A stretch of DNA of 37,241 bases from a virus: positions 1 to 37,241 of IMG/VR virus record IMGVR_UViG_3300005529_000072. One strand, written 5' to 3'. Below are positions 1,239 to 37,241 of this stretch, one piece after another. Both the position numbers and the translations under genes were made by a program. Below the pieces are notes generated by a model. That model made no database searches. It saw only the letters and a list, made by a program, of their open reading frames with translations, and had not been told where the DNA came from. How positions within the stretch are numbered: position 1 is the stretch's first letter; every line of letters begins with the position of its first letter.

Positions 1239-1262
1239 CTGTAAACCTAGTCGGTGTACAAT
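1235..1262 (+). promoter_or_regulatory. Sigma70-type promoter for the HTH gene at 1269
   Basis: TTGACT at 1235-1240 and TACAAT at 1257-1262 are separated by 16 nt. Each hexamer matches five of six consensus bases. The expected start of transcription, about 7 nt downstream, falls on the ATG at 1269, predicting a leaderless message. The -35 hexamer lies inside the last codons of the preceding gene (stop 1236-1238). Confidence 0.6.
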
Positions 1263-1268
1263 GTGGGC

Positions 1269-1490
1269 ATGAAAAGCTACACCTCGGATCAAGTCCGCAA
1301 AATGCTCTGGGATCGTATGAAGGACACACCAGCGGCGGCTATCAGTCAAAGACAGTTCGCGAAGCAGATCGGGATATCGGTCCCATTCCTGAACAGTACG
1401 CTCAAGGGCGTACGGGAACCGCAGGGCAAGATTCTGGAGTTTCTGGGGCTTGAGCGCGTTGTGGCATACCGCTACGTAAAAAAACGCTAA
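1269..1490 (+). CDS. Small helix-turn-helix DNA-binding protein (Cro/XRE-like)
   Basis: The 73-residue product has a helix-turn-helix at about residues 26-52: SQRQFAKQIGISVPFLNSTL, then KGVREP, a typical XRE/Cro turn and recognition helix. The end (ILEFLGLERVVAYRYV) matches the pattern of small phage regulators that end in a LGL-RV--Y tail. ATG 1269 is preferred over GTG 1254 because the predicted promoter ends at 1262, making 1269 the first codon of a leaderless mRNA, as for lambda cI from PRM. It probably represses or tunes transcription. It stands apart from the main immunity region at 36.4 kb. Confidence 0.78.
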   Translation: MKSYTSDQVRKMLWDRMKDTPAAAISQRQFAKQIGISVPFLNSTLKGVREPQGKILEFLGLERVVAYRYVKKR

Positions 1491-33152: not shown

Positions 33153-33653
33153 TTATCGGAACGATTCGAGATAGCTACACAGTGAGCCGAGGTCATCAGA
33201 GCGCATCAGCCGCACGACGTGGCGAGTCTCACCACACAGTCGGAACCATTCACCGCGAATCCGGTAACGTCTCAACAGAAAATGGATCAGATTCTCAAGT
33301 TCCTGCTCGGCACGAATGCTGCCTAAGACCCGCAGGCGCCTGTGATGACTGATTTGGATGGCTTCGAGCCGCTTGCGAAGATTGGTGGTCGAGCCGAACT
33401 TGACCGCGCCTGAGAGCCCGATGGCATAGACGCGCATCGCGGAACCTGAAGACGGCCTAGCTGCCTGAATAATTGAAGAAAATTCAGGAATTTCTGTGGG
33501 AATTTCGCTTTTCCGAGGCGCGAAAATTGCCACGTTGTGCAAGCCGCGCGAGATACACCAGCGGCAAAATAACGCCCCAGGGGCGGTCTCACGAAGGCAT
33601 CCATGAGACGCACAGAGCGATAACTGTGCAGTTTCGGAAGCTACACCATTCAT
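33153..33653 (-). CDS. Zinc-finger plus GIY-YIG nuclease-like protein
   Basis: The 166-residue protein has an N-terminal Cys cluster C14-x4-C19-x10-C30-x2-C33 and a linker. At about residues 74-140 is a GIY-YIG/MUG113-type domain: RVYAIGLSGAVKFGSTTNLR, KRLEAIQISHHRRLRVLG, a Glu at 120 and GEWFRL. It probably cuts or binds DNA. Some members are non-catalytic regulators. ATG 33653 forms ATGA with the Q-like stop. A long upstream extension of this frame only shadows the Q gene. It is the last early-operon gene before the terminator. Confidence 0.75.
   Translation of the reverse strand: MNGVASETAQLSLCASHGCLRETAPGALFCRWCISRGLHNVAIFAPRKSEIPTEIPEFSSIIQAARPSSGSAMRVYAIGLSGAVKFGSTTNLRKRLEAIQISHHRRLRVLGSIRAEQELENLIHFLLRRYRIRGEWFRLCGETRHVVRLMRSDDLGSLCSYLESFR
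33464..33506 (-). promoter_or_regulatory. AT-rich island with dyad and direct repeats inside the GIY-YIG gene
   Basis: In GC-rich surroundings, CCTGAAT (33464-33470) and ATTCAGG (33482-33488) form an inverted repeat with an 11-nt centre. GGAATTTC occurs at 33487-33494 and again at 33499-33506. The island codes for the linker between the two domains. It could be a protein-binding site or part of a late promoter upstream of the terminator. No clear -35/-10 pair is seen. Confidence 0.25.
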
Positions 33654-34054
33654 ATTTTGTTCTGCAAGTATTCTAGCGAACGACCGATCTCGCGCCGTGC
33701 TCGATATAGCAAAAGCCTGAACCTGTTCGGGCTCATCCCACAGTAGCGAGCCGAGACCTCGATGGGCTGCCAGTAGACGTAGTGTTTGGTCACCACCTTG
33801 CGTTCGATGGCCTTCAGGCGCAATACGGCGTGCTCGACGGCTTCCACCGCGGAGCCCATCTCCGGGAGGGGTCCCGGTTGGGCAGCCCCTGTAAAGCCTT
33901 GCTCGGCGACCCGAGCGAGTAGGGTCATGGTGGGCCAGCCACTTAAACCCTCCCTGCCCCAGCGCGCCCACATTTCCAGGGCATGATCGACATGCGCCAG
34001 AGCATCCCCCATGGGACGTCCGCGTGATCCGGTGATGGTCATAACTGCGTTCAA
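33650..34054 (-). CDS. Antitermination protein Q-like (sigma-70 region 4-like HTH)
   Basis: The 134-residue protein has a helical N-terminus (DALAHVDHALEMWARWGREG). At about residues 80-130 is the C-terminal pattern of phage Q-type antiterminators: EAVEHAVLRLKAIERKVVTK, HYVYWQPIEVSARYCGMSPN, RFRLLLYRARREIGRSLEYL. These resemble sigma region 4, bind near the late promoter and let RNA polymerase pass terminators. The context fits: it is near the end of the early operon, just before the terminator and the late operon. TTG 34054 makes a TTGA overlap and has GGGGG upstream; ATG 34042 is an alternative. Confidence 0.78.
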   Translation of the reverse strand: MNAVMTITGSRGRPMGDALAHVDHALEMWARWGREGLSGWPTMTLLARVAEQGFTGAAQPGPLPEMGSAVEAVEHAVLRLKAIERKVVTKHYVYWQPIEVSARYCGMSPNRFRLLLYRARREIGRSLEYLQNKI

Positions 34055-35188: not shown

Positions 35189-35967
35189 CAGCAGTACTCC
35201 GGGTCTTCGGCCGGGGGGCGCCAGGTGAGCTGGGGTTCTTCGTGCTGGGAGCGCGGCCGGAAATCCGGAGCCCGTCGGCACCACATCCGCCAGGTTCGAT
35301 CCCAGTCGTGCTTGCGTGCCTTGGCGCCGGAGGCCGAAAGCCAGTAATCGGTGAAGTTCTGGAACTCCCGCTCCGGGTCCGCCTTCTCGGCTTCGGCGAT
35401 TGCTCGCCTCTCGGGGGTCAGACTCCAGTCCTCGGGGAGGCGCGTCGCGGTGGCTGAGCGCTTCGCGCGAGGCTCTCTCTCCCTCTTACTCTTGTCTGAG
35501 TCTGAGTCTGAGTCTGAGTCTGAGTCTGAGTAAGTGTCCGCTGTGTCTGATGGTGTCGCGCGGTGTCCGCCGGTGTCCGCCGGTGTCCTATGACGTTCCT
35601 TGTACCGACGCACTTTCTCAGCGTTGCGCCCGTCCTTGATCTGGTCACGCCCTGAGGCGCGGTCCCGGTAAAGCTGGATATTCACCACCCGCCAGCCCCA
35701 ATCGCGCGCAGGGTCGATCGGTACGAGCTTGCGTCCCTCCTCTGCCTGGCTGCGACTGCGTGGGTCGGGAGCGCAGAATCGCTTGATGCAGGCGAGGAGG
35801 TCGGCTAGAGGCATGCCAGTCATGCCCGAAATAGCTTCGGGCATCACATCGATATGGCCGCGATGATCGGCGAGCGCGAGCATGCACACCCAGGCGGCGG
35901 TATCAGGCCATTTCCCGTAGAGCGACCCCTTGAACACGGAGTCGAAAACCGGGGTGTAGCCGCTCAT
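35188..35967 (-). CDS. Replication initiation protein (lambda O-like)
   Basis: The 259-residue protein opens with SGYTPVFDSVFKGSLYGKWP and AAWVCMLALADHRGHIDVMP, then EAISGMTGMPLADLLACIKR. This is the winged-helix-like N-terminal domain of phage replication proteins. DWGWRVVNIQLYRDRASGRD and RNAEKVRRYKERHR follow, then a repetitive linker (129-158) with (SD)6 at 147-158, and a basic helical C-terminal domain (LTPERRAIAEAEKADPEREF, ASGAKARKHDWDRTWRMW). The plan matches lambda O: a DNA-binding N-half, a linker with iterons in the DNA, and a C-half for helicase recruitment. ATG 35967 is chosen since MSGYTP starts the family; GTG 35997 is possible. Confidence 0.78.
   Translation of the reverse strand: MSGYTPVFDSVFKGSLYGKWPDTAAWVCMLALADHRGHIDVMPEAISGMTGMPLADLLACIKRFCAPDPRSRSQAEEGRKLVPIDPARDWGWRVVNIQLYRDRASGRDQIKDGRNAEKVRRYKERHRTPADTGGHRATPSDTADTYSDSDSDSDSDSDKSKREREPRAKRSATATRLPEDWSLTPERRAIAEAEKADPEREFQNFTDYWLSASGAKARKHDWDRTWRMWCRRAPDFRPRSQHEEPQLTWRPPAEDPEYC
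35494..35529 (-). repeat. Six tandem copies of a 6-bp unit coding for (Ser-Asp)6
   Basis: GTCTGA on the plus strand is repeated without change at 35494, 35500, 35506, 35512, 35518 and 35524, encoding six Ser-Asp pairs on the minus strand. Copy-number change keeps the frame and would only alter linker length. Confidence 0.95.
35534..35588. repeat. GTGTC repeats at 10-bp spacing, candidate replication iterons
   Basis: GTGTC occurs at 35534, 35543, 35553, 35563, 35573 and 35583, thus on one DNA face once per helical turn. Within it CGGTGTCCGC is repeated exactly at 35561-35570 and 35571-35580 and partly at 35581-35588. It lies in the middle of the O-like gene, where lambda keeps its origin. Confidence 0.6.
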
Positions 35968-36107
35968 GAAGAAAAAGCCGGGCTCCGCAGGGAGCACGAC
36001 GCCACGCAGACGGTGGTTCGTATGGGGCCGGCTGAGGACGCGGGCGCTGAAAGGGAGGAAAGCGCTCCGCGGTGTTGGTTATGTTGTATACCCCCTGACG
36101 TGGACAT
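35964..36107 (-). CDS. Possible 47-residue mini-protein between Cro-like and O-like genes
   Basis: The only gap of the early operon (35968-36106) carries a frame that starts at ATG 36107, overlapping the Cro-like stop as TAATG, and ends at TGA inside the O-like start codon (ATGA). This exact fit favours translation by coupling. The product is unusual: Ser/Ala/Arg-rich (GALSSLSAPASSAGPIRTT, then VCVASCSLRSPAFSS), with no motif, so it may be non-functional as a protein or serve only coupling. Confidence 0.35.
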   Translation of the reverse strand: MSTSGGIQHNQHRGALSSLSAPASSAGPIRTTVCVASCSLRSPAFSS

Positions 36108-36352
36108 TAGGGGGCTCGGGCCTCACCGATCGGGCGCCCCCGGCGCTTCATCGGCGCGTTCGCGGTCAGAATGTCGCGGACCGTGATTTCCAGGCCCTTC
36201 AAGGCCATGGCCACGATCACGTCTTGCCAGTACTCCTGGGGGATGCGGCCGAATTTCTTCCACTTTCGGGCCGTGTCAGGTTTGACTCCAACCGCTCGGG
36301 CAAACTCTGAAATGTTCCGCCAATGGCCAAATATGTCGTGAACGCCTTGCAT
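36107..36352 (-). CDS. Cro-like helix-turn-helix regulator
   Basis: The 81-residue protein has a helix-turn-helix in residues 14-44 (ISEFARAVGVKPDTARKWKK, FGRIPQEYWQDV), the pattern of small phage Cro/YdaS-like regulators, and a basic tail (MKRRGRPIGEA). It is the first gene of the leftward early operon and divergent from the repressor. The predicted promoter's -10 ends 7 nt before ATG 36352, so the mRNA has almost no leader. It likely binds the operators in the immunity region and favours lytic growth. Confidence 0.8.
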   Translation of the reverse strand: MQGVHDIFGHWRNISEFARAVGVKPDTARKWKKFGRIPQEYWQDVIVAMALKGLEITVRDILTANAPMKRRGRPIGEARAP

Positions 36353-36359
36353 GCCCTCT

Positions 36360-36386
36360 TTTATAACGGAATACTTTTCCAGTCAA
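36360..36386 (-). promoter_or_regulatory. Leftward early promoter (lambda PR-like)
   Basis: On the minus strand, TTGACT (36386-36381), then the 13-bp operator GGAAAAGTATTCC and GT, then TATAAA (36365-36360). The spacer is 15 nt, shorter than the ideal 17. The operator begins next to the -35 and fills nearly the whole spacer, so a bound repressor would block RNA polymerase. Confidence 0.65.
36368..36380. promoter_or_regulatory. Operator site, copy 1 (GGAATACTTTTCC)
   Basis: The 13-bp sequence is the exact reverse complement of the sites at 36908-36920 and 36930-36942. It occupies the spacer of the leftward early promoter. The repressor or Cro-like protein is the likely ligand. Confidence 0.75.
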
Positions 36387-36415
36387 TGGGCGGAAATAAT
36401 GGCCAGTGACTGGAA
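36377..36415. promoter_or_regulatory. Inverted repeat TTCCAGTCA / TGACTGGAA at the repressor start
   Basis: Perfect 9-bp arms at 36377-36385 and 36407-36415 with a 21-bp centre. It covers the region between leftward promoter and repressor start, and overlaps operator copy 1. It may be a second binding element (Cro versus repressor) or a DNA-loop site. A weak rightward -10 (AATAAT, 36395-36400) lies within it. Confidence 0.5.
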
Positions 36416-36441
36416 TTTCTATCCAGCTACCGTTTGCGGGC

Positions 36442-36816
36442 ATGGCGAAGCGTCCCCGCAGCGGCGAGAAAGGCACCCCCGGTCGAAAGGCCGATGGGGT
36501 GCCGGCTGGGCGGAGCGCTTTTAAGCGTGAGCTGGCCAGCCGTCTGAAGAGCGCCCGCGAAGATGCCGGGCTGAGCCAAGTGGAGATGGCCAGGCGCTTG
36601 ACGATCGCGGTCGGTTACGAGGTAACTGCCGACGAATACCGCAAATATGAGGGCGGCAAAAAGCCTTCGTCCATGCCCCACGACCTGTTATTCCCCTTCG
36701 CTGAGATCACCGGCCGCACGGTCGGGACGCTCGTCGCGCCCCTCCCTTTTCGGGTCGTCCGCCCAGAACAGGCTTTAGCGGTGCGACCCGCCCCCTTACG
36801 GAAGCCGGCGTACTAG
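36442..36816 (+). CDS. XRE-family phage repressor (CI-like, short)
   Basis: The product has a basic N-terminal arm (MAKRPRSGEKGTPGRKADG) and an XRE helix-turn-helix at about residues 30-80 (AFKRELASRLKSAREDAGLS, QVEMARRLTIAVGYEVTADE, YRKYEGGKKP). The C-terminal part is short (to 124 residues). It lacks the S24 peptidase domain of lambda CI, so induction would not be by RecA-driven self-cleavage. It is flanked by the two operator-bearing early promoters, which marks it as the prophage repressor. ATG 36442 is chosen; GTG 36406, 12 codons upstream, would be leaderless from a weak AATAAT -10. Confidence 0.75.
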   Translation: MAKRPRSGEKGTPGRKADGVPAGRSAFKRELASRLKSAREDAGLSQVEMARRLTIAVGYEVTADEYRKYEGGKKPSSMPHDLLFPFAEITGRTVGTLVAPLPFRVVRPEQALAVRPAPLRKPAY

Positions 36817-36845
36817 AACTACTGGAGGCTCACCGCTAGATATCT

Positions 36846-36875
36846 CAGCCCCAAGCGGGGCTGGGCCATCTTTTT
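36846..36875 (+). terminator. Intrinsic terminator after the repressor gene
   Basis: CAGCCCC (36846-36852), loop AAGC, GGGGCTG (36857-36863), then seven bases and five T (36871-36875). The 7-bp stem is strong, but the T-run is displaced by seven bases, so efficiency may be moderate. It would insulate the next early promoter from repressor transcription. Confidence 0.65.
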
Positions 36876-36900
36876 GCGTTTGAGCGGCCTTTCTGCGCCT

Positions 36901-36920
36901 GGAATACGGAAAAGTATTCC
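36901..36920. promoter_or_regulatory. Operator dyad GGAATAC-n6-GTATTCC, containing operator copy 2
   Basis: Perfect 7-bp arms at 36901-36907 and 36914-36920. The right 13 bp (36908-36920, GGAAAAGTATTCC) is identical to the other two operators. It abuts the -35 hexamer of the rightward early promoter at 36921. Confidence 0.7.
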
Positions 36921-36949
36921 TTGACATCAGGAAAAGTATTCCATAGACT
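36921..36949 (+). promoter_or_regulatory. Rightward early promoter (lambda PL-like) with operator copy 3
   Basis: TTGACA (36921-36926), 17-nt spacer, TAGACT (36944-36949). The -35 is consensus. The operator GGAAAAGTATTCC lies at 36930-36942 inside the spacer, in the same orientation to the promoter as in the leftward one. Transcription would start near 36956 and lead to the gene at 36978. Confidence 0.75.
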
Positions 36950-36977
36950 TTCTCCCCATCAGCCAGGGGAGACAGCC

Positions 36978-37193
36978 ATGTACGTCCCGCAGAAGATCAC
37001 CACGACGGTCGTCCTCCGGCCCGACTACGACAACCGCCAGCTGCACAGCTTCTCGGCCTGGTTCGATGCGAACGAGACCGACCTGCAAGCCTACTTCCGT
37101 GCCCTGGACCCCGATATCCGCGGGTGTGACTTCCTCACCTTCGCCTCCTGTCAGCACGAGATCGAGCAAGCCACCCAGGGAGAGCGGCTGTGA
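36978..37193 (+). CDS. Small early protein, first gene of the rightward operon
   Basis: The 71-residue product starts YVPQKITTTVVLRPDYDNRQ, LHSFSAWFDANETDLQAYFR and is acidic with aromatic residues. ATG 36978 has GGGGA about 8 bases upstream and lies about 22 nt after the predicted transcription start. In lambda the corresponding position is taken by N and small host-interaction genes. This one lacks the Arg-rich motif of N, so antitermination is unlikely on sequence alone. The function is unknown. Confidence 0.65.
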   Translation: MYVPQKITTTVVLRPDYDNRQLHSFSAWFDANETDLQAYFRALDPDIRGCDFLTFASCQHEIEQATQGERL

Positions 37194-37241
37194 GCGCCTG
37201 GCACTGGTTCCAAGGTTTGTCCTGGAGTGCCGCCTCTCTCG
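37190..37241 (+). CDS. Hypothetical protein, 5' fragment (runs off the right edge)
   Basis: GTG 37190 overlaps the preceding stop (GTGA). The first 17 codons read SAWHWFQGLSWSAASL after the start Met. It is clearly the second gene of the rightward early operon, with GGGAGAGCG upstream as ribosome site. Too little is seen to name it. Confidence 0.5.
   Translation, partial: MSAWHWFQGLSWSAASL

Follow-up and report, generated by a model that had tools for sequence, protein, structure and literature searches.

In phages lambda and P22, the genes for Cro and for the repressor are divergent with the OR sites between them, and a second pair of operators lies at PL beyond the repressor gene. The operators are inside promoters, OR2 stands beside the PRM -35 element, and spacings are 20 to 24 bp. 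Self-cleavage through an S24 domain belongs to the way in which lambda is induced and is not common to all lambda-like switches; the repressors of the TP901-1 and phi13 CI-Mor systems do not rely on it. The TP901-1 and phi13 switches involve an interaction between CI and Mor (PMC11149083). The cI message of lambda is leaderless, and in PY54 leaderless cI and cro messages have both been proven by RACE (PMC4488713).

We analyzed a 37,241-bp record of an uncultured virus (the window, meaning the whole of that stretch of DNA), one end of which carries an arrangement like that of lambda and P22, with a degenerate OR2 and a putative PRM. This region is very probably a lambda-type lysogeny switch in which a short XRE protein acts as the repressor and a Cro-like protein competes with it for the same operators. 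The gene order, the sites, their spacing and the conservation of all three can be read from the DNA itself.

Phages that share the switch

A search with the Cro-like protein led to the uncultured phages L004, L008 and L009, which share the order cro, divergent repressor gene, and then a promoter with two operators. Their repressors are homologous, at 33 to 38% identity. Using a pattern that describes PL only (GGA-N7-TCC-TTGAC-N4-GGA-N7-TCC), we matched eight viral contigs, seven of which encode homologues of both proteins: the same three phages again and, as new members, L012, L014, L016 and L017. The eighth, L013, does not encode homologues of both proteins and was rejected as a chance match. 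As a direct control for chance, the same pattern was run against 257 Gb of bacterial and archaeal genomes, where it matched 13 contigs, none with homologues. Cro-like homologues are present in seven related loci; five of these uncultured phages keep the layout of the switch, and the other two keep it in part. In L014 and L016, PL and the gene pair are present and the full Pcro/PRM register is absent.

No relatives were returned by a search with the repressor alone or by a Cro alignment run against bacterial genomes, and a scan with the exact 20-mer gave no matches. A scan for a Pcro pattern added no members; its hits L036 and L037 were chance matches. Neither the repressor nor the Cro-like protein matched anything in the phage records searched. 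As a separate observation, 12-bp tandem repeats in an open reading frame of L010 (4297 to 4500) encode a AARDPAWDAARD-type repetitive protein stretch.

Tyrosine integrases were found in four of the seven relatives, which supports the view that the window phage is probably temperate. The window record, possibly a fragment, yielded no integrase, and a resolvase-type integrase was also looked for and not found. The first gene of the rightward PL operon (36979 to 37193, plus strand) encodes a 71-amino-acid protein that matches no known family, and the record ends 48 nt after it. A second small helix-turn-helix protein is encoded near the start of the record (1254 to 1490, plus strand); in a circularly permuted genome, this gene might lie further along the PL operon. 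Elsewhere in the window, a run of TGAGTC hexamers (35492 to 35533) in a replication-initiation-like gene encodes an (Asp-Ser)n stretch, and a protein weakly similar to sigma factors (33650 to 34054), possibly a late regulator, is encoded between the replication and structural genes.

Operators, promoters and predicted message starts

The first-pass annotation had reported a 13-mer, GGAAAAGTATTCC, three times in the immunity region. We recovered all three copies where it had placed them and, in a scan of the whole record, no other exact copy. One of them, OR1 (36368 to 36380, minus strand), lies in the Pcro spacer and has the same position in six phages. The other two are on the plus strand: OL1 (36908 to 36920) abuts the PL -35 element, and OL2 (36930 to 36942) is within the PL spacer. 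The claim that the 13-mer sits inside both early promoters held, whereas the added point that the copies share one orientation means little because GGAAAAGTATTCC is an imperfect palindrome, and each copy is also found on the opposite strand with three mismatches. A 20-bp dyad described next to the PL -35 element is present (36901 to 36920). The relatives lack its left arm, and the dyad was rejected as a functional unit because it is not conserved.

A degenerate form of the operator, GGAWWNNNWWTCC, matches the 37,241-bp record exactly four times, always in the switch region, and the reversed control matches nowhere. In the 67-kb record of L017, the same form was again found at four places, all in the switch region, with a control count of zero. 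A weight matrix was then derived from the operators of L004, L008, L009, L012 and L017, with the window excluded. Its best sites in the window were those at 36930, 36908 and 36368 (18.6 bits each), and the site at 36412 ranked fourth (15.1 bits); the next-best site in the whole record scored 12.3 bits. A site as good as that at 36412 appeared in 0.3% of simulated first-order Markov sequences with the nearest-neighbor composition of 36353 to 36441. Across the relatives the shared operator form is GGA-N7-TCC, in differing sequence versions. The proposal that the repeats are chance or host-factor sites without a role in immunity has next to no probability, since they are specific to the switch region and their position is conserved while their sequence differs between phages.

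The fourth-ranked site, OR3 (GGAATTTCTATCC; 36412 to 36424, plus strand), lies in the spacer of a putative PRM and has the same position in L017 and L004. A fifth, OR2-like site (GGAAATAATGGCC; 36392 to 36404, plus strand) is degenerate and poor when scored alone (2.7 bits); a full GGA-N7-TCC stands at this register in L004, L008, L009 and L012. Because both sites are in register with good operators of the relatives, we read the operator set of the window as three OR and two OL sites, which is lambda's anatomy if the degenerate OR2 is counted. OR1, OR2 and OR3 are between the repressor gene and cro, and OL1 and OL2 are on the repressor gene's far side. OR1 and OR3 are clear in the window and OR2 is degenerate, while OR2 is clear in four relatives. 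The first-pass annotation had instead seen a minimal two-operator switch, with an identical operator in its two early promoters. The identity of the three best copies fits that proposal, but it missed the conserved fourth site and the degenerate fifth, both in register with the relatives, and we consider it highly improbable.

PL (36921 to 36949, plus strand) reads TTGACA-17-TAGACT, a 10/12 match to sigma-70, and was the sole sigma-70-like match in a strict scan of 35900 to 37241. On the minus strand, the Pcro -35 element TTGACT (36381 to 36386) is followed directly by OR1, and the -10 element TAAAAG (36358 to 36363) is 5 nt before the cro start codon. This side is the same in six phages: a -35 element, an operator, 4 nt and TAWAAG, giving a 17-bp spacer, with the start codon 5 to 7 nt on. 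On the repressor side, these six phages share the order OR1, 10 to 11 nt, OR2, 1 nt, a TTGAC-like hexamer, 17 nt, a weak -10 element, 7 nt and the start codon, and past OR2 there are no insertions or deletions. The corresponding elements in the window, on the plus strand, are a putative PRM -35 element, GTGACT (36406 to 36411), 1 nt after OR2 in a register kept in six phages, and a weak putative -10 element, ACCGTT (36429 to 36434), 7 nt before the repressor start codon at a spacing also kept in six phages. The -35 hexamers of the six are GTGACT, GTGACG, GTGACT, ATGCAA, GCGACA and GTGACG; in the -10 hexamers, position 6 is T in all six and position 2 is A in five. Three of the six (the window, L017 and L004) have OR3 in the PRM spacer. 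A geometry that does not change across six phages defines Pcro, PL and a weak PRM, the last of these putative because its hexamers were read by register.

OL1 and OL2 are 22 bp apart, start to start, in all eight phages, with OL1 touching the -35 element and OL2 in the spacer; this spacing counts as independent evidence for the window, L004, L008 and L009 alone, because the PL pattern was used to find L012, L014, L016 and L017, where it holds by construction. L009 also carries a third good operator, GGAAATACTTTCC (2078 to 2090), 23 bp upstream of its OL1. Behind the repressor gene, a credible intrinsic terminator (36844 to 36865, plus strand) has a 9-bp stem (-20.7 kcal/mol, z -3.7), and the lambda-like layout first proposed, with the repressor gene between early promoters and a terminator behind it, is supported. 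If transcription starts the usual ~7 nt past the -10 element, both messages would be leaderless; we therefore predict cro and repressor messages that start at their start codons, the situation proven in PY54.

The two regulators and their operators

The repressor gene (36442 to 36816, plus strand) encodes a 124-amino-acid protein with a Cro/C1-type helix-turn-helix (Pfam HTH_31, 1.5e-6) and a short tail. Its structural model was confident over residues 30 to 100 and, in a fold search, resembled C-proteins, the 434 repressor domain and TP901-1 CI. As first annotated, the repressor lacks an S24 cleavage domain, and no Peptidase_S24 was found in the window record. From this it had been argued that induction must differ from the lambda mode, which is a fair inference for repressor cleavage only: the S24 domain is absent in the window and in all seven relatives, and its absence excludes lambda-type self-cleavage of the window repressor. 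Because the repressor has no RecA-stimulated S24 self-cleavage domain, we claim a lambda-type layout and not a switch that is inducible like lambda. Induction could possibly proceed through an antirepressor, a protease or passive loss; a Bro-N antirepressor was looked for and not found. A more distant phage, L005 (4780 to 5924), has a related Cro-like protein together with a repressor that does carry S24, and its different, GTACGCTGTGTAC-like operator occurs twice on either side of the repressor gene.

The Cro-like protein (36107 to 36352, minus strand; 81 amino acids) is the product of the first gene of the leftward (lytic) operon. Its nearest solved folds in Foldseek were the Cro proteins of Xfaso 1, N15 and P22 (weak E values of 0.25 to 0.76; probabilities of 0.87 to 0.99), and its relatives match Pfam YdaS and P22_Cro, so that an N15/P22 Cro-type fold is indicated. 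Its AT-hook-like tail ends in RGRP, an AT-hook core that five of the six core phages retain.

These features raise the question of which protein goes with the operator. If the operators belonged mainly to the Cro-like protein, with the XRE protein as an accessory regulator, one could point to the Cro-like recognition helices (RKW), which, like GGA/TCC, hardly vary among the six core phages, and to the RGRP tail, which could contact the AT-rich operator center. The operator variant, however, tracks the relatives of the repressor and not those of Cro. Among the repressors, that of L017 is the nearest to the window's (66% identity), and GGAAAAGTATTCC is the operator in both phages. Among the Cro proteins, the nearest is that of L004 (60% identity), a phage with GGATAAATAATCC-like operators, and the L017 Cro is only 40% identical to the window's. 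Because the window matches L017 in its repressor and 13-mer and L004 in its Cro, the operator class would go with the repressor, a pairing that comes from a single mosaic case. We therefore regard the Cro-centered explanation as improbable. L014 and L016 have operators of the form GGAC...GTCC, and their recognition helices carry K for the usual R (YKK for YRK and KKW for RKW), which suggests, as a lead drawn from small numbers, that both proteins changed in parallel with the operator.

Under the lambda-type reading, the XRE protein would be the prophage repressor and would bind the 13-bp GGA-N7-TCC operators, perhaps cooperatively. At OR1, inside Pcro, and at OL1 and OL2, around PL, it would silence the lytic and PL operons. 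OR2, adjacent to the PRM -35 element, is placed such that it could promote transcription of the repressor gene itself, whereas the position of OR3 within the PRM spacer is one from which it could limit repressor synthesis. The Cro-like protein would compete for the same operators and tip the switch to lysis. Against this reading we counted the poor PRM -10 element, the degenerate OR2, the two relatives without the whole register, the missing integrase in a window record that may be a fragment, and the OL1-OL2 spacing that is given by construction in four of the seven relatives.

We also propose, tentatively and as somewhat doubtful, that these loci form a family of compact, conserved lambda-type switches, in which the repressor would be uncleavable, each promoter would have an operator in its spacer, the mRNAs of both regulators would be leaderless and induction would depend on some other factor such as an antirepressor. 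The operators, three promoters and two short proteins make this a switch that can be predicted from sequence, and the phage records searched contain no described relative of it. Its operator variants, paired with repressor variants, form a natural series, and because the window and its seven relatives all lack the cleavage domain, they offer a clean case for how such prophages are induced.

Comparison with described switches

Large terminases of the Pseudomonas phage H66 group are ~50% identical to that of the window over 97% of the length, but the group has no match to its repressor or Cro-like protein. The N-terminal domain of TP901-1 CI is among the fold matches of the repressor, whereas the TP901-1 and phi13 CI-Mor systems differ in gene content and operators, and no Mor-like protein was identified in the window. 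Relative to lambda and P22, the window repressor is short and lacks the S24 cleavage domain, and the operators are 13 bp instead of 17 to 18 bp. Here, moreover, OL1 abuts the -35 element with OL2 in the spacer, OR3 is found in only three of six phages, and the cro message is predicted to be leaderless too. The immB regions of N15 and phiKO2, telomere phages like PY54, have three OR and two OL sites, the set that we read in the window, and the N15-type Cro is among the closest folds of the window Cro-like protein; these three phages differ in operator sequences, and the window proteins have no detectable sequence match among the phage records searched. Taken together, the evidence supports well a switch that is real, well conserved and ordinary in kind, new only as a member.
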